A stretch of DNA of 64,000 nt from an uncultured Methanobrevibacter sp. (GTDB lineage: Archaea; Methanobacteriota; Methanobacteria; Methanobacteriales; Methanobacteriaceae). The stretch's first letter is position 1; each line of letters opens with the position of its first letter. The notes below the pieces were generated by a model. That model searched no databases. It saw only the letters and a program-made list of their open reading frames with translations, and was not told the DNA's origin. Position numbers and translations under genes: made by a program. Below are positions 36,058 to 64,000 of this stretch, in pieces. The DNA lies in NCBI GenBank assembly GCA_902794475.1, contig CADBHR010000003.1, forward strand, positions 1 to 64,000, read 5' to 3'.

Positions 36058-36077
36058 ATTACTTCTCAAATGCTCTC
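36058..36077 (-). repeat. 20-bp recombination-site-like repeat, copy A
   Basis: Reads GAGAGCATTTGAGAAGTAAT on the minus strand, 70 bases before a tyrosine recombinase gene. Related copies lie at 42160 (plus), 61271 (plus) and 61538 (minus). Confidence 0.75.
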
Positions 36078-42093: not shown

Positions 42094-42524
42094 TTCTTTT
42101 AATACATTTTACAAATGATATACTACTATATCATATGTAATAGTATATAAATCTTCACCAAGAGCATTTGAAAACTAATCCCATCCAAAAAAAAGTATAC
42201 TGAATACAAACACCAAATAAAAAGCAGCCAAAAATCAAATACTTAACGAAATAAAACCCAAAGAATGCCTAAATACAAAAGTACACCCCAATCTGAAATT
42301 CATCCCCAACCTTAAAGAGGTCGAGGTATTCTTTCACCATTAGATAAAATATTGTTGGTTGTGTTCTTGGATTTAGAATATCCATTCTTGTAAGAGTTTG
42401 CCTGGTATAAAATTAAAGAAAATAATCGAAAAATATTAAAAATTGGTGGGGAAGTGTCTCATATCCTTTCCTAAAAAAGGAATGGAGTTTCAGAAACTTC
42501 CAAATGTGATATGCTTTGAATACA
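42094..42524. other. Intergenic region between TnpB relic and membrane protein
   Basis: Apart from repeat copy B I see no gene. There is a short run-on of IS-end-like sequence near 42440-42500 that could be a terminator for the opposing gene (CCTTTCCTAAAAAAGGAAT forms a hairpin TTCC/GGAA). Confidence 0.35.
42160..42179 (+). repeat. 20-bp recombination-site-like repeat, copy B
   Basis: Reads AAGAGCATTTGAAAACTAAT, 18 of 20 identical to copy C at 61271 (GAGAGCATTTGAAAAGTAAT). Orientation is opposite to copy A at 36058. Confidence 0.7.
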
Positions 42525-49047: not shown

Positions 49048-52000
49048 ATGAGTTTCATTGATAAGGTTAAAAAGGCTTTCGGGTCCAAAAAGGAAGATGT
49101 CGAATCTCAAAATAATGTGAATGATGAAATAATTGATAAGCCATCGCCAAATGAAAAGGCCAGAACCTTCAGATATCTGGATGATTTGATACATAGCGGT
49201 GCAAAAGAGATTGCATTGCATTCAGATATTGTTTTAGGATATCTCGAGAAGTCAGAATATAATGACGGCATTAGATTAGATGTCGATAATATGGTTATAG
49301 ACGGAAACGGCCACACAATCGATGCAAAAGGAAAGGCACGAATATTTCTCTCCACAGGCAAAGGCATTGAAATCCAAAACGTCACATTGAAAAATGGGCA
49401 TTCAGATGAGGGCGGCGGAGCAATTTTCAACAGGGGCGAGTTGACAGTTACCGGATCCACACTCACAGAAAACACAGCAAAACGTGATGGCGGAGCAATA
49501 GACACCTTTGAGGGCATGCTGACGGTATCTGATTGCACACTAACCAAAAACGCGTCAGAAAAGTCCGGCGGAGCAATACACAGCTGGAGAAATACTGTAA
49601 CCATAATGAAATCCGCATTCACAGGAAACACAGCAGAAAATGATGGCGGAGCAATATTACACAGTGTCGGCATGTTGACTGTATCCGATTCCACACTACA
49701 GGAAAACACCACAGAAAAGGATGGCGGAGCAATGCGCATCTGGAGTGAGTCAAATATTACAGGCTGCGCACTCATAAAAAACACGGCAAAATGTGGCGGT
49801 GGAGCGATATACAACAGCGGGGAGCTGACCATAACCGGTTCTGCACTCAACGAAAACACAGCAGGAAATGATGGCGCAGCAATAATGCATGACAGGGAGC
49901 GCCTTAAAGCTTTCAATTGCCATTTTGAACACAACAAATCCAAAGCAGGCATCATGTCCAATCAGGATGCACTGCAGGTGCATGATTGTGTTTTCATAAG
50001 CAATGAGGCTGAAAATGTTATTGTCAATGAGGAAAATAAGGCAAATGCCGGCATCTTCAATGGCGAATTTAAAGACAACAATGTCGGCGAATCCGTTATC
50101 TTCAATAACGCCAAACTATGCACCATCGCAAAAAGCGCATTTAAGAACAATCGCTCCAATGCGATAATCAACAAAAGCGATTTGACTTTAATTAGCCCTG
50201 AAATAAAAGATAAGGGAAAAACAATATTGAACGAAAAACACCTCCTGATAAGAAACTCCACCGATGAGCTTGAAGAGCGAGTTTACGGTGACGGCATGAT
50301 CGAAAATGAGATAATTCCTTCGGATGAAAAGTTCGGCTTCGCATACCTGGACGAAAAGATACACGAAAGCCCGACAGGGGAAATAATGCTGGAAGAAGAC
50401 ATAACATTTCAAGATTACGAAACGGATTATTATGAAGAGGGAATAGAACTGGACATTGATAATCTGATTATAGATGGAAACGGACACACAATCGATGCAA
50501 AAGGAAAAACGCGAATCTTTTACTGCACCGGCAAAAACATCACATTAAAAAACATCACATTAAAAAACGGAGATTCCCTTAATGGCGGAGCAATATACAA
50601 GAAGGGAGGCGATTTAACCATAAATGATTCCACATTTAATGAGAACTCAGGTTTGAGTGGCGGAGCAATATACAACGAAAAGGGTGAGTTAACCATAAAT
50701 GATTCCACATTTAACCAGAACACCGTAACTTTGAGTGGTGGAGCAATATCCAATGAGTACAGTGATTTAACTGTTACAGGCTCCACATTCAATGGGAACA
50801 ACGCATATAGTGATGGCGGAGCAATATACAGCTGGGAAAGAAATTTTAAAATTTTTGATTGTGTTTTTTCAAATAATGAATCTGCAAAAAATATCATTTT
50901 CAGTTTTGATTCGCTGCAGATTTACAATAGCGATTTCATTGCCAATCATGCCCCCAGGGGCATTGTCAATTATGGGGATCTCTCCACCCTCAGCATTTCA
51001 AACGGGAAATTTAAGGACAATGATATGGACAAATCCGTTATTTCCAATGACGGCAAGTTATGCACGATTGAAAAAAGCATCTTTGAAAACAATGCCTCCC
51101 CTGCCATAGCCAATAAAGGGGAATTGACATTGATAAGGCCTAAGATAAAGGATGGGGGAAAGGCAATACTGAACGAAAACTATATCCTTATAAAAAAGGC
51201 GGCTGAGGAACTTGAAAATAAGATTTCGGGTGACGGAAAAGTTGAATATGCGGACAGATTCGAGTTCAAAAAATTTGACTTCACCTGTCTGGACAAAAAA
51301 ATACACGAAAGTGCCTCAAAAGAAATAATGCTGGAAAATGACTTCTCCTTTGAAAATTACGAAATAGATTTTTATGAAGGGGGAATAGAGCTGGACATTG
51401 ACGATTTGACCATAGATGGAAACGGGCACACAATCGATGCGCAGGACAAAGCAAGAATATTCCACTGCACAGGTAAAAACATTACACTAAAAAACATCAC
51501 ATTAAAAAACGGACACTCACACAAGAACCATGACAATCCGTTTAACAGCAATGGCGGAGCGATAAGAATCAACTGCAATGTGAACTTAACCATCGAAAAT
51601 TGCAATTTCATAGACAACACATCGGAAGACAAAAGCGGTGCAATACACTACAGGGACGAATTGTCCATAACGGATTGCACATTCTATGGAAACGCTGCAA
51701 TATTGGGCGGAGCAATATACAGCAGCGGGAAGTTAACCATAAATGACTCTACACTACATGAGAACACAGCAGAAAAGGATGGCGGAGCAATACACAACTT
51801 CAATGGCATATTGACCGTGTCCGATTCCACACTCACTGCCAACAGCGCAAAACATGACGGCGGAGCAATAAGAAACAGCGGCGAGGTGAATATTACGGAC
51901 TCCACACTCACAGAAAACAGCGCAAACAACGGCGGAGCAATATGTAACTACGGCGAGTTGAATATTACTGGCTGCACAATCACGAAAAACAGTGCAGATG

Positions 52001-52188
52001 GCGGTGGAGGAGCCATAGATAACAGCACTAATGGCGATTTAACCATAACGGAATCCACGCTCGCAGAAAATACAGCGTGGCAGGGCGGGGCAATATATCT
52101 ATATGTACGCTCAAAAAAATATGAAACGGATAATTGTACTTTCAAAGATAACCGCCCTGGCGATATCTTTCGCGATTTAGGCGTCTAA
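49048..52188 (+). CDS. Signal-less beta-helix (PMP-repeat) protein, 1,046 aa
   Basis: N-terminus MSFIDKVKKAFGSKKEDVES is the amphipathic tag, with no signal peptide. Three modules start with a cap (FRYLDDLIHSGAKEIALHSD near residue 50; FAYLDEKIHESPTGEIMLEE near 430; FTCLDKKIHESASKEIMLEN near 750) and a conserved IDGNGHTIDAKGKARIF stretch, each followed by coils of the GGAIYNSGELTITGS/FxxN type. Between the modules are short non-helix segments (IIPSDEKFGF). The last coil ends DNCTFKDNRPGDIFRDLGV, much like the end of the 53123 paralogue (CTFKDNSPDDVH). The start lies behind GCGGGTGTTCTAA. It is intact. Function and location are unknown. Confidence 0.82.
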   Translation: MSFIDKVKKAFGSKKEDVESQNNVNDEIIDKPSPNEKARTFRYLDDLIHSGAKEIALHSDIVLGYLEKSEYNDGIRLDVDNMVIDGNGHTIDAKGKARIFLSTGKGIEIQNVTLKNGHSDEGGGAIFNRGELTVTGSTLTENTAKRDGGAIDTFEGMLTVSDCTLTKNASEKSGGAIHSWRNTVTIMKSAFTGNTAENDGGAILHSVGMLTVSDSTLQENTTEKDGGAMRIWSESNITGCALIKNTAKCGGGAIYNSGELTITGSALNENTAGNDGAAIMHDRERLKAFNCHFEHNKSKAGIMSNQDALQVHDCVFISNEAENVIVNEENKANAGIFNGEFKDNNVGESVIFNNAKLCTIAKSAFKNNRSNAIINKSDLTLISPEIKDKGKTILNEKHLLIRNSTDELEERVYGDGMIENEIIPSDEKFGFAYLDEKIHESPTGEIMLEEDITFQDYETDYYEEGIELDIDNLIIDGNGHTIDAKGKTRIFYCTGKNITLKNITLKNGDSLNGGAIYKKGGDLTINDSTFNENSGLSGGAIYNEKGELTINDSTFNQNTVTLSGGAISNEYSDLTVTGSTFNGNNAYSDGGAIYSWERNFKIFDCVFSNNESAKNIIFSFDSLQIYNSDFIANHAPRGIVNYGDLSTLSISNGKFKDNDMDKSVISNDGKLCTIEKSIFENNASPAIANKGELTLIRPKIKDGGKAILNENYILIKKAAEELENKISGDGKVEYADRFEFKKFDFTCLDKKIHESASKEIMLENDFSFENYEIDFYEGGIELDIDDLTIDGNGHTIDAQDKARIFHCTGKNITLKNITLKNGHSHKNHDNPFNSNGGAIRINCNVNLTIENCNFIDNTSEDKSGAIHYRDELSITDCTFYGNAAILGGAIYSSGKLTINDSTLHENTAEKDGGAIHNFNGILTVSDSTLTANSAKHDGGAIRNSGEVNITDSTLTENSANNGGAICNYGELNITGCTITKNSADGGGGAIDNSTNGDLTITESTLAENTAWQGGAIYLYVRSKKYETDNCTFKDNRPGDIFRDLGV

Positions 52189-52246
52189 ACATCAATTATT
52201 CTTAAAAATCAGATTATATGAATGCTTTGAGGTCAATTATAATCGG

Positions 52247-52525
52247 GTGTTTATTTTAGGGTCTCTTGATTATTTAAGAATTGTTTTGAGAGAAGAAAAT
52301 CTGAATAAAAATCTTAAAAACGATTTATTCAAGGCAATTTCCAAATATGTCAATGATATTGAAAAAATCTATTCCTTATGCAACAAAGACAATGACGTTT
52401 TTGAAAATATGAGTTTAACTGACCTCATGAATCATTTTGACAGGTTGCAAAATTATATCAGTCATAATTTGGATGTTCTTCCAAGATTGGACGATGATGA
52501 TTTTGATGAATCCCTATTCTATTGA
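52247..52525 (+). CDS. Small hypothetical acidic protein
   Basis: A 92-residue frame (GTG start 52247; the GTGTTTATTTTAGGG segment leaves the start doubtful, TTG 52286 is an alternative) with helical, acidic sequence (VNDIEKIYSLCNKDNDVFEN, LPRLDDDDFDESLFY). I recognise no family. The upstream ATAATCGGGTGTTTATTTT resembles the leader of the beta-helix genes, so it may belong to the same regulon. It follows the 49048 gene by 58 bases. Confidence 0.5.
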   Translation: MFILGSLDYLRIVLREENLNKNLKNDLFKAISKYVNDIEKIYSLCNKDNDVFENMSLTDLMNHFDRLQNYISHNLDVLPRLDDDDFDESLFY

Positions 52526-52569
52526 GGAACATCTCTGTGGAATATCCAAACCCTCCACCACCTCAAACC

Positions 52570-52863
52570 CTACAGCTCGAAGTTGAAGCTGACTGCAGTG
52601 AACTTCATCCCGCTGTCCCTGATTTTCTTGGACTTTATCTCGACATCCCCGTACTCTTTCAAGAATGAATTGATTTCTCGGGAAGCCGGGCCGTAGTTTT
52701 TCCGGTCATAGATCCTGTAGTTTCCCATGAACTTGACCGTTTCCTTGGTGTTTAGGACATTGACCCTGTCCATCCTGAAGGACTCTCCGTTTTTCTCAAG
52801 AACCGAATTTACCTTTTCCACTATATCCCTTTTGATTTTTTCCTTTTCTTCAACGCTGATCAT
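52570..52863 (-). CDS. Small hypothetical protein
   Basis: The start ATG 52863 follows GCGGAGACGATATC. The 97-residue protein is charged and mixed alpha/beta (MISVEEKEKIKRDIVEKVNS ... FLKEYGDVEIKSKKIRDSGM). It could be a small regulator; I recognise no domain. Confidence 0.5.
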   Translation of the reverse strand: MISVEEKEKIKRDIVEKVNSVLEKNGESFRMDRVNVLNTKETVKFMGNYRIYDRKNYGPASREINSFLKEYGDVEIKSKKIRDSGMKFTAVSFNFEL

Positions 52864-53034
52864 GATATCGTCTCCGCTTATGGTTGCGGGCATCCCAGGC
52901 TTTTGCAATGAACCTTAAGCCTGCTTATATAACATGTTATATTTCATGATTGTTATAAATTATGAAAAATTACCAGAAATGATATAATGCCGACAGCCCA
53001 TTTATTAAATTTATTTAAAAGCAACGCTTTTGAA

Positions 53035-53122
53035 CATGATGGAGCTCCACCATCACGGCTTGTGGTGTTGCCTGTTAATGCGGATTCTGTTAGTGTTATC
53101 TTGCCCGAAAAGGCATACCCCT
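53035..53122 (-). pseudogene. Orphan beta-helix coil downstream of the 53123 gene
   Basis: On the minus strand the frame reads GKITLTESALTGNTTSRDGG and then loses the pattern. It looks like one extra coil from a longer ancestor or a duplicated tail. Confidence 0.5.
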
Positions 53123-54337
53123 CTAATGAACATCATCAGGACTATTGTCTTTGAAAGTACAATCATTTAAATTTAAACCGTCTAAACTGGTGTATACTGC
53201 TCCACCCTCCTCCAGCGCCGCATTTTCCGTGAATGTGGAATCGGCTATTGTCAAATCTGCCTCATTGTACACAGCACCGCCGTCGGCTTCTGCAATGTTG
53301 CTGTTGAATACTGTTCCGGATATTGTCAGGTCAGCCTCATTGTACACGGCACCGCCGTCGGCTTCTGCATTGTTACTGTTGAATACTGTTCCGGATATTG
53401 TCAGGTCAGCCTCATTGTACACAGCACCGCCGGACATTTCTGCAATGTTGCTGTTGAATACTGTTCCGGATATTGTTATCTCACCGCTCAAATTGTATAT
53501 TGCACCGCCGTCATCCTGTGCCGTATTTCCCGTAAATGCGGATTCAGAGATTGTTAACTCGCCATCCAAATTGTTTATTGCACCGCCGTAACACTCCTTG
53601 TTCCGGGAGTAGTCCTCCTGTGCAGAGTTATATGCGAATGTGGATCCGGTTACTGATAACTTGCCCATGTTCTGTATTGCTCCGCCACAACTGTTTGCAA
53701 TGTTTTCCTGCAGTGTGCAACCGGTTATTGTCAGCTCGCCCTTGTTGAATACCGCCCCTCCTTTACCGTACTCTCCCCGTGCAGCATTATCCATGAATGT
53801 GGAATCGGCTATTGACAGCTTGCCTGTGTTTTCTATTGCTCCACCGGCCTGCCGTGTACTGTTGTCCTTGAATTCAGATTCTGTGACTGTTAAGTTGCCT
53901 GCGTTTCGTATTGCTCCACCATTACCATAATCTATTGCTTCATTATCTGTGAATGTTGATTTGGCTATTGTTAATGTACCATTATTGAATATTGCTCCGC
54001 CGCCATATTCCACTGCTGCGTTTCCCGTGAATGTCAATCCGGTTACTGTTAACTTGCCTTCGTTTTCTATTGCTCCACCGCTTCCGCCTGAAAATCCATT
54101 TTTTAATTTGACGTTTTTAACACACAGATTCTTTGCGATGCAATGAAATATTCGTGCCCTTCCTTTTGTATCTATCGTGTGACCGTTTCCGTCAATGATC
54201 AAACCGTCAACATCCAGCTTGATTCCATCTTCATATTTCGACCATTCATCAGCACCCAAAACAATATTTGAGTCCAGAACAATCTCCTTTATGCCACTGT
54301 GAATCAAATCATCCAAATATTTAAACTTTTTTGCCAT
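53123..54337 (-). CDS. Signal-less beta-helix protein, 404 aa
   Basis: The start follows GTAAGGTGTTGGC, and the box TTAATTAAAGTTATTT lies upstream near 54373-54390. It starts directly with the cap (MAKKFKYLDDLIHSGIKEIV), without the amphipathic tag, then LIIDGNGHTIDTKGRARIFH and about 12 coils (LTFTGNAAVEYGGGAIFNNG, FKDNSTRQAGGAIEN...). A 75-base unit encoding ADLTISGTVFNSNNAEADGG occurs about three times (53246-53480). The end CTFKDNSPDDVH matches the 49048 paralogue. Confidence 0.8.
   Translation of the reverse strand: MAKKFKYLDDLIHSGIKEIVLDSNIVLGADEWSKYEDGIKLDVDGLIIDGNGHTIDTKGRARIFHCIAKNLCVKNVKLKNGFSGGSGGAIENEGKLTVTGLTFTGNAAVEYGGGAIFNNGTLTIAKSTFTDNEAIDYGNGGAIRNAGNLTVTESEFKDNSTRQAGGAIENTGKLSIADSTFMDNAARGEYGKGGAVFNKGELTITGCTLQENIANSCGGAIQNMGKLSVTGSTFAYNSAQEDYSRNKECYGGAINNLDGELTISESAFTGNTAQDDGGAIYNLSGEITISGTVFNSNIAEMSGGAVYNEADLTISGTVFNSNNAEADGGAVYNEADLTISGTVFNSNIAEADGGAVYNEADLTIADSTFTENAALEEGGAVYTSLDGLNLNDCTFKDNSPDDVH
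53246..53480 (-). repeat. About three 75-base tandem repeats in the beta-helix gene
   Basis: The unit encodes one helix coil (25 residues, ADLTISGTVFNSNIAEADGG plus AVYNE) and is nearly identical between copies, as expected for recent duplication. Confidence 0.7.
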
Positions 54338-54496
54338 GCCAACACCTTACTGTTATTGATTTTGGAGATGATGTTAATTAAAGTTATTTTTAACGGCATA
54401 TTCGCAGTCCAAATCAGATGTGAAAGCCGAATGGCCGCAACCCAAGTCACCGAAAACCTTTTCAATGCTCCAAAACATCACCAGCCACGGCCATTT

Positions 54497-55303
54497 TCAG
54501 TCACCATTAATAGTTTCTGTGAGAACAATCTTTCCCCCGCATTTCGGGCAGGGGTGCAGCGTATTGATTTCCCTTGGGATTTCATTTCTGCATTCCGGAC
54601 AGTCGATTAGAGACATTTGCCGTCCATACTTGCAGTCCCAGAAGTCAACCCTGTGGATTGTATTGTCATAGTCAATGCAGGCCACGCCCCGCCGTACGAT
54701 TTCCTCATCGATTAAGGAGTCAAATACGCCGAATGCATATTCAGTCAAGTCTTCAATGGCGTCCCCTTTGCTGTCATATGACTGGACATCCACACTTAAA
54801 TGGGCAGGACAGTATCTTTCAAGCTCCGTGAAGGTTAGATACATCCTGGATTCATCTTCAGGATTGTTTTCATCCACTGCATCAGGAAACAGCATCCCCA
54901 AAAGACCCCCTGATGAGGGTTCATATTTCCTGCCTTCAACTTCACATGGCCCGCCGAATGTTATCTCATATTCCCTGCGCCCCTTGATTTCCTTAAGCTC
55001 GGCGATTTCGTTTTCATATCTTATCCTTCTTGCACTTATGCCCGATTTCACAAGATCATAGGTTTCCGGATGGGAATCCATAGGCACTTTAAGATAATAT
55101 GTCTTGACAATCTTGTCGCAGTGCGGACAGCAGCTTTCATCGATATGGCCCACAAAGCCATGTTTTTGCTCGAAATCTGTAGTCGAAGAGGTCCTGATGA
55201 ATTCCTCAACTTCTCCCGTATCGCTGTTGTAGAAATAGCATAATTCTGTTCTGTCGAATTCGAATCCACAGTCTTCACATTCGTATTCATAATAGATTGC
55301 CAT
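54497..55303 (-). CDS. Zinc-ribbon protein of unknown function
   Basis: The start ATG 55303 follows GAGTGATTTTC. The N-terminus has a zinc-binding pattern (YECEDCGFEF and further on CCPHCDKIVK), the middle (residues about 90-200) is unknown, and the C-terminus carries a second zinc ribbon (CPECRNEIPREI ... CPKCGGKIVL). There is no membrane segment, so it is cytoplasmic, possibly a nucleic-acid or protein-binding factor. I do not recognise the family. Confidence 0.6.
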   Translation of the reverse strand: MAIYYEYECEDCGFEFDRTELCYFYNSDTGEVEEFIRTSSTTDFEQKHGFVGHIDESCCPHCDKIVKTYYLKVPMDSHPETYDLVKSGISARRIRYENEIAELKEIKGRREYEITFGGPCEVEGRKYEPSSGGLLGMLFPDAVDENNPEDESRMYLTFTELERYCPAHLSVDVQSYDSKGDAIEDLTEYAFGVFDSLIDEEIVRRGVACIDYDNTIHRVDFWDCKYGRQMSLIDCPECRNEIPREINTLHPCPKCGGKIVLTETINGD

Positions 55304-55483
55304 GAAAATCACTCGCCTGATGCCTTGAAAAGGCCTTGAAGTTGCTTGAGATAGAATCTGTATTTCCTATTAAAAAAATCTTGTCAAATCGAGCCTGCAT
55401 TATTTAAAGATTGTTGCCCGCTATCGATGTTACTGCAGCCCTTGGAGAAAATGAAGTAAATTAATTCCAAAAATTAATTTACT

Positions 55484-56109
55484 TTATCGAATCTCTTTTA
55501 GAATGATTTCCTCTAAGTCCCCAGGCACTCTCCTGAATCCTACAATCTTGTCGGGATATGCTCCCAGACGGCTTTCACCAGCCGAATTTATGTCCTCAAG
55601 AATTCCGAACATTTCCGATGCCGGAACTTCAGTTTCGATTTTGCAGAAATCGCCGAAAAATTCCTCCCGGACAATGGTGCCATGAACATCCTCGATTTTT
55701 TGAATGCATTTGTCAACACAATCCTTCGGAGTGGAAATGAAAACTTTCTGAATCGGTTCAAGCAGACATGGTTTTGCAAGCATTATTGCATCATTTATGG
55801 CCTTTTTGACTGCAGGCATGACCTGTGCGGGACCCCTGTGAATCAGGTCTTCATGAAGTTTGGCATCGACCAGCTTGACTTTCAATCCGCAGGCCTCCAC
55901 AGAAGCCAAAGGCCCCTCCTTAACTATCTCTTCAAACCCGTCAAGCAACATCATCTTTGATTCATCCATGAATTTGACATCACTGGCCATGTTTAAGAAC
56001 ATGTTTCTGTTTTTAATGTCCCATATGCAATTTGCTTCAGCTTCATCCATGCCCAGTTCAGCGAATTTTTCAGTGTCGACTTCAATCTCATCTGCATTTG
56101 CCCTATTAT
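55484..56109 (-). pseudogene. Elongation factor 2 paralogue, C-terminal domains only, joined to adhesin
   Basis: About 200 residues correspond to the end of archaeal EF-2 (ADEIEVDTEKFAELG..., DGFEEIVKEGPLASV, the diphthamide loop LHEDLIHRGPAQVMPAVKK with its His kept, and LLEPIQKVFISTPKD). Domains I-III, including the GTPase, are missing, and many residues differ from ordinary EF-2, so this is a diverged paralogue and not the housekeeping gene. The N-terminal end is joined in frame at about 56105 to a beta-helix adhesin fragment (FLNNRANADEIEVDT). The first Met (56050) is not a natural EF-2 start. Confidence 0.8.
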
Positions 56110-56972
56110 TTAAGAAAGTGGAATTGGAAATAGTGAGAGTATCTAGAAGATAATCGTGGGCGAAGTAAATTGCAGAACCATTAACAGCAATATTGCCCGT
56201 GAAATTACAATTTGTTACAGTACCTAGGTTTTCAAAGTGAACTGCACCGCCCCTGTATGTTGCTTGGTTATTAGTAAAATTACAATTTGTTACAGTAGAT
56301 GTAGAACCTGAACCAGCAAAGTAAATTGCTCCACCCCTATTGGAAGCAGAGTTATTAGTAAAATTACAATTTGTTACAGTACTTTCACCAGTAAATCGTA
56401 TAGCTCCTCCTAAATATGCATTATTATTAATAAAACTACATTTGTTACAGTACCTTCACTATCTTTGTAGAAGTAAACTGCACCACCACAACTCTCATCA
56501 CCAGTTGCTTTATTAGCAGTGAAATTACAATTTGACACAGTACCAGAATATATCCAGACAGCACCACCATCATAGGTTGCGGAGTTGTTAGTAAAATTAC
56601 AATTTGACACAGTACCAGAATATATCCAGACAGCACCACCATCATAGGTTGCGGAGTTGTTAGTAAAATTACAATTTGTCACCTCACCAGTACCACTGAA
56701 GTAAACTGCACCACCATATCTATTTGCAATGTTATCAGTAAAATTACAATTTAACACGGTACCAGTACTATCAAAGTAAATTGCTCCTCCATTACCATTA
56801 TAATTAGCATTTTTAATGGTTAGGTTTTTAATTGTTACACCGGAAGCACTAACACGAAATGCCCTGATTGTTGATCAGTTCATGTCAATGAATGCACCGT
56901 TACCATCAATGACTTTATTGTCCTCACCGATAGTAATGGTTTCACCCCCATCGTAAGTATAGTTTTTATGGA
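56110..56972 (-). pseudogene. Adhesin beta-helix fragment, frameshifted and with in-frame stop
   Basis: From about 56972 to 56110 the minus strand matches the exported adhesin at 22821: TYDGGETITIGEDN, VIDGNGAFIDMN, then an in-frame TGA (56875-56877), AFRVSASGVTIKNLTIKNAN, and PMP coils (CNFTNNSATYDGGAVWIYSG). The frame shifts near 56440 where an A is missing. There is no signal peptide and no tail. It contains an exact 72-base tandem duplication (56522-56593, 56594-56665). It ends in the EF-2 fragment at 56105. Confidence 0.8.
56522..56665 (-). repeat. Exact 72-base tandem duplication
   Basis: Two identical copies (56522-56593, 56594-56665) encode one coil TNNSATYDGGAVWIYSGTVS each. Exact identity points to a recent duplication. 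Confidence 0.85.
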
Positions 56973-59600: not shown

Positions 59601-60140
59601 ATGAATGTTAATGTTTTAAGATTGGACCACAGATTAAAAAGAGACACCCGTATAACAACTCACGTATGCTTGACCGCACGTGCATTTGGAGCAAGCAAAA
59701 TATATCTTGCCGGTGAACGTGATAACCGCCTGATGGAAAATGTAAGGGATACCGCTTCAAGATTTGGCGGAAATTTTGAAATAGAATACACCGAAAGCGC
59801 AATGGGAGTCATTAACAGATGGAAAAGGGATGGTGGAAAGGTAGTGCACCTTACAATGTATGGGACACAGGCACATGAAACCGCTCCTGAAGTAAGGGAA
59901 GACGGATCAGATATATTAATCGTTGTAGGTGGGGCTAAAGTTCCTGGAAAAGTCTATAAAGCTGCGGACTGGAATGTGTCCGTGACAACACAGCCGCACT
60001 CAGAGGTGTCTTCTCTGGCAGTATTCCAGCATCTGCTGATGGATGGTAAGGAATTCGATTTGGAATTTGAAAATCCGGTTCTTGAGGTCATTCCAACAGC
60101 TCATGGTAAAAACGTTAACATTCATGATGAAAATCGTTAG
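59601..60140 (+). CDS. trm56: tRNA (cytidine(56)-2'-O)-methyltransferase
   Basis: The SPOUT-type aTrm56 methylates C56 in the T-loop of tRNA. The protein (179 aa) matches the family start (VLRLDHRLKRDTRITTHVCL) and the SAM pocket motif (DILIVVGGAKVPGKVY, and VTTQPHSEVSSLAVF). The TATA box TTTATATA lies at 59562-59569, only about 31 bases before the ATG, so the mRNA is nearly leaderless. Confidence 0.92.
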   Translation: MNVNVLRLDHRLKRDTRITTHVCLTARAFGASKIYLAGERDNRLMENVRDTASRFGGNFEIEYTESAMGVINRWKRDGGKVVHLTMYGTQAHETAPEVREDGSDILIVVGGAKVPGKVYKAADWNVSVTTQPHSEVSSLAVFQHLLMDGKEFDLEFENPVLEVIPTAHGKNVNIHDENR

Positions 60141-61231
60141 GATATGAAGTCATCCAGCCTTTTGATGGCTTTCAGCTTTTCATCTTTTTTTATACGTGCC
60201 TGATCGATTGCATCCCGCATGGTCTGAATTGAATTGTCATATACTTCACGGTCAACGGGATAAGGAAAACCGTCCTTTCCTCCGTGAGTGAAACTGTATT
60301 TTACAGGGTCCTTCCAGCTTGCAGGCTCGCCATAAACTAAATCGGATATCAATGCAAGTGCCCTTATTTTTTTAGGTCCGATTCCCTTAAGCAAAATCAG
60401 TTCCTCATAGTTTTCAGGCTGGATTTCCCATGCTTTAGTCAATACCTCAAATTCAGCATCGGAAATGTCCATGTCCAGGACCGGGTGATGGGCAGGCATA
60501 CTGAAATCCTCCAAAAGCATCTGATTGTCTTTTCTTTTGAAGTATTGCCTTAAATGGTTAGGGTTGTCGTTGATTAAATCAACGCTGACTTTTTGAGCTT
60601 CCTCACTGTCCTTTGATGACATGTTCAGGGTGTTTGGAGTTTTTGCATCGCAGGATATTCCGCTGTGAGGGTCATTCAATAACTTGTCAACCTCACTGCC
60701 GAGCCAGTGGTAGCGGCGGGCATATTTATTGGCAGTGTTCAGACCTTGCTGGACAACTGCCCAGTCTCCCTTTTCGGTTATGAAGAAATTGTGCTGGTAC
60801 AATGTGTATCCGTCCTGAATGCAGGAGTTGTCGATTTTGGCAGAGAGTTTGCTTGTCTCGACCAGTTTTTCGGTTGTTTTTGTCTTTAGGTTGAATACTT
60901 CTCCGGCATGCTCTATTCCTTGTGGGGTCTTTCTGGATTTGGCGCCCTTGCCTCCAGTCAAATAGATTCCGTGCTCTTCAGGGTCTAGGGAAGCTTTAAG
61001 TGCACCCAATGTTGTTGTAGTGGTTCCGGAAGAGTGCCAGTCAAAACCTAAAACGCAGGAGAATGCCTGAAACCAGTAGGGATTTGATATGCGGTTTAAA
61101 AACTCCTCTAAACTGTATTCATCAATGATTACGCTGGATAGTGCTCCTGATAACTTGACCATTCTTGAAAATAACCAGCTTGGAGGATGACCTCCATGAA
61201 GCGGTAAGTTGACTGCCCCTCTTCTTTGCAT
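60137..61231 (-). CDS. DUF763 family protein
   Basis: A 364-residue DUF763 protein (MQRRGAVNLPLHGGHPPSWL, TTTTLGALKASLDPEEHGIY, LTGGKGAKSRKTPQGIEHAG). The family is conserved in archaea, with a C-terminal helix-hairpin-helix-like segment (LILLKGIGPKKIRALALISD) that suggests DNA binding. No biochemical role is established. It overlaps the end of trm56 by 4 bases on the opposite strand. Confidence 0.88.
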   Translation of the reverse strand: MQRRGAVNLPLHGGHPPSWLFSRMVKLSGALSSVIIDEYSLEEFLNRISNPYWFQAFSCVLGFDWHSSGTTTTTLGALKASLDPEEHGIYLTGGKGAKSRKTPQGIEHAGEVFNLKTKTTEKLVETSKLSAKIDNSCIQDGYTLYQHNFFITEKGDWAVVQQGLNTANKYARRYHWLGSEVDKLLNDPHSGISCDAKTPNTLNMSSKDSEEAQKVSVDLINDNPNHLRQYFKRKDNQMLLEDFSMPAHHPVLDMDISDAEFEVLTKAWEIQPENYEELILLKGIGPKKIRALALISDLVYGEPASWKDPVKYSFTHGGKDGFPYPVDREVYDNSIQTMRDAIDQARIKKDEKLKAIKRLDDFIS

Positions 61232-61270
61232 GGATAATGTTATGTTTATTATAAATATTATCTTTTTTCC

Positions 61271-61290
61271 GAGAGCATTTGAAAAGTAAT
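61271..61290 (+). repeat. 20-bp recombination-site-like repeat, copy C
   Basis: Reads GAGAGCATTTGAAAAGTAAT. It is the partner, in inverted orientation, of copy D at 61538-61557. Confidence 0.8.
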
Positions 61291-61365
61291 TTTTTTTAAA
61301 AATTTTTTACATTCATGTAAATATTGCTTTTTAAACAAAACTTTATTAATGAATAATTGACATAC

Positions 61366-61400
61366 TTATTAATGTTATAGTGCCCGAATTATCACTAACT
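61366..61400 (+). repeat. 35-base imperfect direct repeat, left copy
   Basis: TTATTAATGTTATAGTGCCC then GAATTATCACTAACT matches 61490-61524 at 26 of 35 positions by eye. It lies inside the segment between copies C and D. Confidence 0.6.
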
Positions 61401-61414
61401 AATGGGTCTTTATC

Positions 61415-61466
61415 GGCTCTCATCAAAAATCAGCCATCGAAACGGCCGGAGAGGCGTTTTAGAGCC
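61415..61466 (+). other. Structured element between the direct repeats
   Basis: GGCTCT (61415-61420) pairs with AGAGCC (61461-61466), with inner AAAA/TTTT and GCC/GGC pairs. It is more GC-rich than its surroundings. No gene is evident. It could be a recombination core, an RNA or a terminator. Confidence 0.45.
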
Positions 61467-61489
61467 AAAAGTTCGTGATATTCGAAAAA

Positions 61490-61524
61490 CTATTAGTGTT
61501 ATAATACTCATAATATCACCAACT
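61490..61524 (+). repeat. 35-base imperfect direct repeat, right copy
   Basis: CTATTAGTGTTATAATACTC then ATAATATCACCAACT; see the left copy at 61366-61400. Confidence 0.6.
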
Positions 61525-61537
61525 TTTTTGATAAAAT

Positions 61538-61557
61538 ATTACTAATCAAATGCTCTC
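61538..61557 (-). repeat. 20-bp recombination-site-like repeat, copy D
   Basis: The minus strand reads GAGAGCATTTGATTAGTAAT, 18 of 20 identical to copy C. It lies 40 bases before the recombinase ATG, as copy A lies 70 bases before the broken one. Confidence 0.8.
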
Positions 61558-61596
61558 ACACAAATTAATAAATATCGATTGAATAAATGTGATATT

Positions 61597-62727
61597 ATGA
61601 ATAGTGAGCAAATTTTAGATGAAGTGCACATGTCGTATAACCATGGCATAAGCACTCGGAAAATATACAAACTGGCCGTAAAAAAATACACCACATTTTG
61701 CAATATGGATTTATCCGAATTGCTTGATGAGGCAGAAGCTGAAGAAGATAAGGGTATTCGATGGAAACGCAGAAGCTTGAAAAGAAGGCTGATAAGTTAC
61801 AGACAATATCTTGTTGAAAATTATTCTTTAAACACTGTCAAAACAATGTTTCAGCCAATTCTTGCAATATACAAATATTATGAGATTGAAATCCTTGAAT
61901 TGCCAAAACTCAATCCGAAACAGGTTAAAAAATCAGAACCAGTACAGTTTAAAGATTTGCCTGACAAGGAAGTACTACGTGAAGTAATAAGTGTTGCCAA
62001 TGTTCGTATGGTTGCAATTATATTATTCATGTGTTCCAGCGGATGTGCAAGAAGGGAAACTCTTAATCTCAAAATAAAGGATTATATTGCTGCTTTGGGA
62101 GAATACACTGACAAAACAGATATTTATGAAATACTGTATAATCTCGGTGATGATGATGAAATTGTTCCTACCTGGAGCATATGGAGACAGAAAACCGACA
62201 AGTATTATACAACTTACTGCAGCCCTGAAGCAGTCCTTGCAATCAACAAATATTTGTTGACACGTGAGGATGATCTAACCCCTGAATCTGCACTGTTCCA
62301 GATAGACCCAGCATATCTCAACCATTCATTCAAAGATCTCAATAACTTGTTAGGTTTGGGAAAGGTAGGATGTTTTGTCCGTTTCAGACCACACATGCTT
62401 AGAAAATTCCATGCATCAGCATTATACAATAATGGAATGAGCATGGACAATGTCAATGACCTGCAGGGAAAAGCCAAAAACAAAACCGATTCAGCATATT
62501 TCATGACCAATCCTGAAGATTTGAAATATGAATACATCAAACATCTTCCTGCCGTTACAATCGGTAAGGAGATTGAAAAGCTGTCCGTCAAATCTCCTGA
62601 GTTCAAGAAAATGGAAGTCGAGAATGAAACATTGAAGACTGAACTTGGAGATATGAAAAGAGAGCTTGGAGATATTGAAAGAATCAAGCAGGAACTTGCA
62701 GGCATTAAGGAAAAGGTCGGCGATTAG
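61597..62727 (+). CDS. Tyrosine-type site-specific recombinase
   Basis: The 376-residue enzyme has an N-terminal SAM-like core-binding domain, then the catalytic Arg in CARRETLNL (near residue 150), HMLRKFH (HxxR) and SAYFMTNPED with the likely active-site Tyr. A coiled-coil tail (residues about 330-376, EIEKLSVKSPEFKKMEVENE then LKTELGDMKREL) follows, which may help form the synapse. The start ATG 61597 follows TGTGATATT; an in-frame TTG at 61579 is not needed. The broken copy at 36147 matches along its length. It is the only intact recombinase in the window and is the candidate to act on the 20-bp repeats. Confidence 0.9.
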   Translation: MNSEQILDEVHMSYNHGISTRKIYKLAVKKYTTFCNMDLSELLDEAEAEEDKGIRWKRRSLKRRLISYRQYLVENYSLNTVKTMFQPILAIYKYYEIEILELPKLNPKQVKKSEPVQFKDLPDKEVLREVISVANVRMVAIILFMCSSGCARRETLNLKIKDYIAALGEYTDKTDIYEILYNLGDDDEIVPTWSIWRQKTDKYYTTYCSPEAVLAINKYLLTREDDLTPESALFQIDPAYLNHSFKDLNNLLGLGKVGCFVRFRPHMLRKFHASALYNNGMSMDNVNDLQGKAKNKTDSAYFMTNPEDLKYEYIKHLPAVTIGKEIEKLSVKSPEFKKMEVENETLKTELGDMKRELGDIERIKQELAGIKEKVGD

Positions 62728-63521
62728 CTGATATCATATAATGTTAATGCGGACATCCTTCATGTTTAATTGGATATGTGGGATGTTTTTCAAACTTTTC
62801 TTTTTTAATTTTTACTATTTTTTTCACAGTTATTTCAGGTCATAGTGTTTAGTCATTTTATACAGATACATGTTTTTTACTTTTCCGGTTAAACACCGAT
62901 TGTAGAAAATACGGTGTTTTATTTTTATGGATATACAAACTAATAGGTGAATAGTTTAATTTCTGTACAGTATTCAATAAAATATAAATCGTAATGTTTA
63001 TATATTCATTTTGATAAACTATCAATTAGCCATCACAGGATGACATCAATTTTACGAAGTGAAAACAATTTTTCACTCTTGTACAACTTTTTCTTGTGAG
63101 GCTTAAAAAATCAGTATGGGGAGGTAAAATATCAAAAAGAGCAATAAAAAAGAAGATCGAAAAACCACATTAAAAGGATTATAAATTAAAAAAATATTTT
63201 TTTGCATGAATAGTGAGCTAAAAAATTTTTTTAATATAATCCCTATAATGGGTCAGTAATGAAGAATAAAAATAGTGAACAAGGCCGCAAAACTTTGTTA
63301 AAAATTTATATTTTTCAAAACTTAACCCAATATCTAGTATATTTTAAGGAATATATAAAGATTTTCACATAAAAAAAGAGAAACTTATTTTATTCTAAAT
63401 ATTCGGTAAGTAATGGAAGATTAATTTCACAAAAAACTATTTTTATCTCTTCATAGTGTATGGCCAATAATCTCTGAGATTTCTCATTAACACTTGGCCT
63501 TGAGAATGCAATCACTAACAA
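62728..63521. other. AT-rich gap between recombinase and small genes
   Basis: Apart from the hairpin at 62891 I see no gene. Short frames in it are not convincing. The gap is unusually long and AT-rich, perhaps a control region of an integrated element. Confidence 0.4.
62885..62930 (+). terminator. Hairpin with T-rich tail downstream of the recombinase
   Basis: AAACACCG (62891-62898) and CGGTGTTT (62912-62919) form an 8-bp stem with a 13-base loop, followed by TATTTTTATGG. It lies about 165 bases after the recombinase stop. Confidence 0.4.
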
Positions 63522-63548
63522 GTGAAAAAAAACAGGAGACAAAACACT

Positions 63549-63707
63549 ATGTGTGAAATGATGCAATCCTTGCCGGGAAACGTAATTGTTTTCAATAACT
63601 TCCAGGCACTTGAAGAAGCTATTGCTGAGATAACCGAAACAGAAAACATCAGCAATGAAAAGGAATTCTTTGATTCATATCAAATCAGGATACTGAAACT
63701 GGATTAA
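63549..63707 (+). CDS. Small protein (52 aa)
   Basis: ATG 63549 follows GGAGACAAAACACT. The protein (MCEMMQSLPGNVIVFNNFQA, then LEEAIAEITETENIS) is acidic and helical; a longer frame from 63522 is possible but lacks a ribosome site. I recognise no family. Small proteins next to integrases are typical of integrated elements. Confidence 0.5.
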   Translation: MCEMMQSLPGNVIVFNNFQALEEAIAEITETENISNEKEFFDSYQIRILKLD

Positions 63708-63770
63708 ATAGCTTTGATCCATTAGATTGATGAAATGTGATTTATTAACATATAAAGGAGTCTGTAAGTT

Positions 63771-63875
63771 ATGATGGAAATGGAAGTAAACGGAAAAACC
63801 CATATTTTAGTACCTAAAGACGTATGGGATGAAATATGGGATGTATTTAATCGAATTGAACAGATAGGTGAATAA
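63771..63875 (+). CDS. Very small protein (34 aa)
   Basis: ATG 63771 follows AAAGGAGTCTGTAAGTT. The product MMEMEVNGKTHILVPKDVWD then EIWDVFNRIEQIGE has an AbrB- or phage-like look but no recognised domain. It ends 2 bases before the next gene's start, so they are probably cotranscribed. Confidence 0.55.
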   Translation: MMEMEVNGKTHILVPKDVWDEIWDVFNRIEQIGE

Positions 63876-63877
63876 AA

Positions 63878-64000
63878 ATGGAATTTTATTCAGCATCCAG
63901 AAACTATGAGGCTGATGATGAGGCCTTGCCAAATCAATTCGAAGATAACTACCACGGCATATTAACTCACAAAGGTGAGATTAAAGTTGCCAAAGGTGAC
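63878..64000 (+). CDS. Small gene, cut by the window end
   Basis: ATG 63878 follows ATAGGTGAATAAAA (the GGTGA ribosome site lies within the upstream gene's end). Visible part: MEFYSASRNYEADDEALPNQ, then FEDNYHGILTHKGEIKVAKG. It is truncated by the window edge and I do not recognise it. Confidence 0.5.
   Translation, partial: MEFYSASRNYEADDEALPNQFEDNYHGILTHKGEIKVAKGD

Follow-up and report, generated by a model that had tools for sequence, protein, structure and literature searches.

A 287-bp segment (61271-61557) with inverted ends lies directly upstream of an intact recombinase gene in an uncultured Methanobrevibacter sp., and the question raised by this locus is what its inverted ends and internal repeats do. 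The initial annotation had proposed an invertible promoter or self-regulatory switch, as in fim-type systems, or alternatively an integration site array. We analysed the segment in its window, a stretch of 64,000 nucleotides of contig CADBHR010000003.1, and compared it with the rest of its genome (G000), with the sister species G023 and with other relatives. The layout described in the annotation was recovered: two inverted copies, C and D, bound the segment, which ends just before the recombinase gene (ATG at 61597, 39 bases past 61557); two imperfect direct repeats of 35 bases, one at 61366-61400 and the other at 61490-61524, are identical at 26 positions; a GC-richer stem, starting GGCTCT and ending AGAGCC, is present; and TATA-like boxes, which had been suggested as something to look for on both strands, occur on each (Table 1). 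We regard it as highly likely that the segment consists of two divergent promoters with a common regulatory element and a provirus attachment site between them, a judgement made jointly with those of an order-wide repair and replication regulon and of two attP cores.

Two divergent promoters and a dispersed element

Within the window, the 12-mer GAGAGCATTTGA occurs exactly at 61271-61282 (+), 61546-61557 (-) and 36066-36077, and the 39-nt arms around copies C and D (61264-61302 and 61526-61564) are 79% complementary. When up to 2 mismatches were allowed, the number of 12-mers counted in the window alone was at chance level (11 for 7.9 expected). Comparison of the segment with its own genome gave dozens of short matches to the segment ends, and the 20-mer GAGAGCATTTGAAAAGTAAT, with up to 3 mismatches, was found 48 times versus 0 for the reversed control in this fragmented assembly (210 contigs, 84.8% complete). 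In gene orientation the element reads ATTACTTTTCAAATGCTCTC and is located shortly upstream of start codons; over 87 sites, the TATA-box signal peaks 30-36 bases past the element start, about 10 bases past its end. A scan for bacterial sigma-70 promoters gave chance-level results, as expected for an archaeon. Five identical variant copies with the sequence GGGAGCATTTGAAAAGTATT (G000:C1:8, C10:20211, C19:5508, C38:47 and C50:14025, three of them at contig ends) probably belong to a longer repeat family.

Copy C stands before the host gene DUF763, which is found in 57 of 60 genomes of the genus. All 30 genomes of the Methanobrevibacter group that were examined have this copy, always between -58 and -61 relative to the DUF763 start; those without a recombinase at that place keep it too. 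Copy D precedes the recombinase gene, and since the two genes diverge, the copies are inverted. By sequence, copies C and D are two separate occurrences of a promoter element that is scattered through the genome, and each stands before its own divergent gene. Elsewhere in the window, large repeat-rich proteins are encoded at 49048-52188, 53123-54337 and 56150-56800; they look like adhesin-like surface proteins, and one of those in the 49048-56800 region is apparently fragmentary.

Table 1. Predicted features of the segment and of other element sites in the window
Feature	Position	Strand	Sequence or remark
Element before broken recombinase paralogue (36148 onwards)	36058..36077	+	from the 20-mer search
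Element upstream of TnpB-like gene	42160..42179	-	TnpB by likeness to other element-linked TnpB proteins
Host gene DUF763 (PF05559)	60137..61231	-	Pfam E 1e-130; divergent from integrase
TATA-like box, DUF763 promoter	61248..61258	-	ATATTTATAAT in gene orientation; spacing as over 87 element sites
Copy C, DUF763 promoter element	61271..61290	-	ATTACTTTTCAAATGCTCTC in gene orientation
Core 1, attL crossover core	61367..61379	+	host left, virus right; compared with G023 attL/attR, G000 attR and G121 empty site
Left end of tailed provirus	61380..64000	+	continues outside the window up to 70055, where the contig ends
Virus attP unit between cores	61380..61490	+	at attL here, at attR in G023
Right arm, attP site 1	61388..61399	+	ATTATCACTAAC; from junction comparison
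GC-richer inverted repeat in attP unit	61415..61466		52 nt; z -1.6 as RNA alone
Left arm, attP site 2	61471..61482	+	GTTCGTGATATT; from junction comparison
Core 2, second attP core	61491..61503	+	used by G023 virus
Right arm, attP site 2	61512..61523	+	AATATCACCAAC; opposite in orientation to left arm 61471-61482
Copy D, same promoter element, virus-borne, before integrase	61538..61557	+	ATTACTAATCAAATGCTCTC
TATA-like box, integrase promoter	61566..61575	+	TTAATAAATA; +28 from element start, spacing as over 87 sites
Tyrosine integrase of provirus	61597..62727	+	PF00589 E 1.5e-7; PHROG integrase E 7e-16

The provirus and its attachment sites

The recombinase is, by its predicted gene neighbourhood, the integrase of a tailed provirus. 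From 61488 rightwards, an 8.6-kb stretch shares 98.4% identity with G023 contig C55, as compared with 84.8% identity across the DUF763 region. Alongside the integrase, the provirus carries a helicase and the terminase large subunit (E 3e-84), which are the virion and packaging genes looked for in a tailed provirus. The element is a recurrent part of such integrase promoters: of 29 integrase relatives from other genomes, 18 have it between -55 and -65 (2 of 2900 shuffles were as similar), and the remaining 11 lack it or are truncated. Among virus contigs, 18 hold the element, and in 10 of these it is located 34-58 bases before a tyrosine integrase. In two virus contigs a second copy was seen just past the integrase (L257:3570-3589 and L259:1556-1575); no clear gene was seen within 400 bp of it.

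The junctions between host and virus could be compared in the two species. In virus-free relatives, DUF763 faces a gene with an FKBP-type isomerase-like product, and the empty site, attB, reads TTATTAATGTTATA|TTTATTAACAAATT in G121. In G000, the order at the left junction is host, core 1, a 124-bp unit, core 2 and virus; at the right junction (contig C69) it is virus, core 1 and host. In G023, the left junction consists of host, core 2 and virus; that on the right (contig C48) consists of virus, core 1, the identical unit, core 2 and host. The four junctions agree at TAYTARTGTTATA. The attP unit and G023:C48:101-229 share 100% identity across 129 bases, and core 2 is located between 12-bp inverted arms. 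The two 35-bp direct repeats would therefore be two working attP cores, 124 bp apart, the first of which was used here. The virus here probably integrated via core 1, and therefore the intervening unit stayed at attL; its counterpart in the sister species, 98% identical, used core 2 and left the unit at the other provirus end. All four junctions are accounted for by a single putative virus with two cores that entered one and the same attB by core 1 in one species and by core 2 in the other. Because each genome's two junctions sit on separate MAG contigs, we infer rather than observe that its attL and attR are the two ends of the same provirus. The two-core attP would be a small, clean case of one virus with two crossover points for the same host site.

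An exact search for the attP unit and the core-2 sequence in virus contigs gave no match, and no Rfam family matched in 61000-61800. The GC-richer stem alone folds slightly better than shuffles (z -1.6); the att arms probably account for the score of -3.6 obtained with a wider region.

These junctions bear on each of the other ways in which the repeats could be read. Inverted ends adjoining a tyrosine recombinase are what led to the proposal of a fim-type promoter that is delimited by C and D and that the neighbouring enzyme would flip, and short inverted repeats beside such a recombinase are indeed the likeness to fim. Here, however, the inverted repeats are promoter elements, with the C/D sequence present at about 48 places in the genome and before DUF763 in genomes lacking a recombinase there, and no inverted recombination sites bound the promoter, as the mapped cores are direct repeats (61367 and 61491). 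Orientation, which the annotation had proposed to compare among relatives, is the same in the assembled G000 and G023 sequences; the attP unit has changed provirus end in G023 without being flipped. An inverting switch is hardly credible on these grounds. The same inverted layout occurs without a recombinase between two divergent helicase genes of this genome (G000:C8:22728-22952, L072; two inverted copies about 200 bp apart). The annotation's alternative of an integration site array proved right in substance, as the direct repeats correspond to the two attP cores and the segment holds attL. That the 20-bp repeats are themselves dispersed recombination sites or targets of tyrosine recombinases could be suspected from copies that are near-identical and, in several cases, close to contig ends; the fixed distance to TATA box and start codons, the single orientation relative to the gene, the presence of the element before the same orthologous gene across genomes and the mapping of the junctions to another sequence make this very improbable. 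Finally, the 124-bp unit could be the remnant of another element that had earlier integrated at the same attB. Its base composition differs from the surroundings, and remnants of tandem integration with att cores on either side are frequent, but the closely related G023 provirus has an identical unit at its opposite end, with junctions exactly as a second attP core predicts, and we consider a remnant unlikely.

Among tailed proviruses of Methanobrevibacter, MSTV1 is an example with a tyrosine integrase (discussed in PMC12134362). The provirus studied here resembles this type in being an integrated tailed virus of the same genus with a site-specific tyrosine integrase; it differs in that its integrase promoter bears the host element and its attP has two cores 124 bp apart, each used in nature.

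Genes and genomes carrying the element

In this genome, the genes behind the element encode RPA, a UvrD-type helicase, UvrA, Hef (ERCC4), a MutS-domain protein, Mre11, NurA and Hel308, with Mre11, Hel308 and Hef assigned from sequence and domain content. Further targets are the RFC small subunit, the PolD small subunit, MCM, DUF763, TnpB-like genes and three tyrosine recombinases, one of which is broken. Exact 20-mers were also searched in a genome collection, where the matches listed comprise Methanobrevibacter records and one assembly labelled Ureaplasma. On the contigs among these matches, 53 of 75 proteins encoded downstream fall into DNA-metabolism clusters, some of whose families were assigned from sequence alone: 10 TnpB-like, 7 Hjc, 7 RPA, 6 TopoVI-B, 4 MutS-type, 4 Hef, 3 UvrD, 3 ribonucleotide reductase, 2 Mre11, 2 integrase, 2 DNA methylase, 1 XPD-type helicase, 1 NurA and 1 other helicase. 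About a quarter of the element-linked genes have no clear DNA role, and the genes on the other side of the element form a mixed set. By sequence comparison, one operator is therefore common to many DNA repair gene promoters, as in an SOS-like regulon. Membrane proteins of the YdjM family (PF04307) were observed downstream of the element at five loci (L153, L164, L194, L125 and L126).

With up to 2 mismatches, the element was found in 91 of 120 genomes and in 17 of the 19 genera of the order (control, 0). Before RPA, it is located at about -70 in family f3, persists as a diverged copy in f2 and is lost in genus g17. This genus (G063, G066, G087 and others) has almost no copies of the element while related families keep it, an apparent loss of the regulon.

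Function of the element and its candidate regulator

The best reading of the element is an order-wide, SOS-like regulon for DNA repair and replication that virus integrases exploit. The element would mark genes of DNA repair, replication and recombination throughout the order; with copy D carried by the virus before its integrase, the integrase would be made within the host DNA-stress programme. The provirus may thus be mobilised as part of this programme, analogous to SOS-triggered prophage induction. The position of the element upstream of the TATA box suggests activation rather than repression, and damage is the presumed signal. In its full form, the proposal is a Methanobacteriales equivalent of SOS in which one 20-bp operator and a single regulator, possibly an Orc1/Cdc6 paralogue, co-induce repair and replication genes on damage, and in which many temperate viruses have acquired the operator and so control when their integrase is expressed; we give this full form about an even chance.

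The main rival for function is a replication or cell-cycle regulon similar to E2F/MBF, in which integrases would act when DNA replicates. Because core replication genes (MCM, RFC, the PolD small subunit and RPA) are among the targets, as are TopoVI-B and ribonucleotide reductase, a replication-cycle signal is possible. However, the targets also include UvrA, Hef, UvrD, Mre11, NurA, Hjc, MutS-type proteins, TnpB and virus integrases, of which the integrases are more in keeping with a stress response. The YdjM family is represented among the targets as well, and E. coli ydjM is LexA-controlled. We hold a purely replicative regulon to be possible but rather doubtful.

The SOS-like reading invites comparison with known systems. 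The bacterial SOS regulon, built on the LexA box, also controls integrases, including those of integrons (PMC3323433 for integrons), and shares with the present case one operator for repair genes and for mobile-element integrases, phage integrases included; it differs in that the element is not a LexA-type palindrome and the promoters are archaeal. In Sulfolobales, the DNA-damage response involves an A(N)TTTC element (DDRE) and the regulator Orc1-2 (PMC5817253, PMC9738581). This system is likewise archaeal, with a non-palindromic element upstream of BRE/TATA that is common to DNA-damage genes. In contrast, the element described here is 20 bp long, stands before core repair and replication genes and belongs to a different phylum, and the A(N)TTTC hexanucleotide (PMC5817253) is absent from the consensus ATTACTTTTCAAATGCTCTC. 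In the literature searched, which had most subscription papers outside it, we found no common cis-element for DNA-repair control in Methanobacteriales and no description of the putative repair and replication regulon shared by host and virus. The element makes it testable whether methanogens have an SOS response and whether their viruses listen to it; it should also help to predict which gut and rumen methanogen proviruses respond to host DNA stress, and it provides a sequence handle for finding the regulator.

By analogy with Orc1-2 of Sulfolobales (PMC9738581), an Orc1/Cdc6 paralogue is a candidate regulator. In Sulfolobales, the gene for the regulator itself also carries the DDRE. Here, an Orc1/Cdc6 gene is directly downstream of the 20-bp element in two other genomes (L118:1501-1600 and L139:1501-1640). 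In this genome, the element precedes a small membrane-protein gene adjoining the second Orc1/Cdc6 (G000:C181:195-1652, L098). Against this candidate, genus g17 keeps its second Cdc6 with almost no element, and the presence of a second Orc1/Cdc6 does not discriminate genomes with the element. CA(C/T)TTGAAA is common to the element core and to the ORB repeats at origins, but the origins examined contain no sequence resembling the element when up to 5 mismatches are allowed, and the ORB link is therefore only a lead. The small membrane-protein gene (about 60-80 aa, with the motif QSCMV) was seen behind the element and beside the second Orc1/Cdc6 in several genera (also L167, L193 and L134), and its product is possibly a stress-induced membrane peptide.
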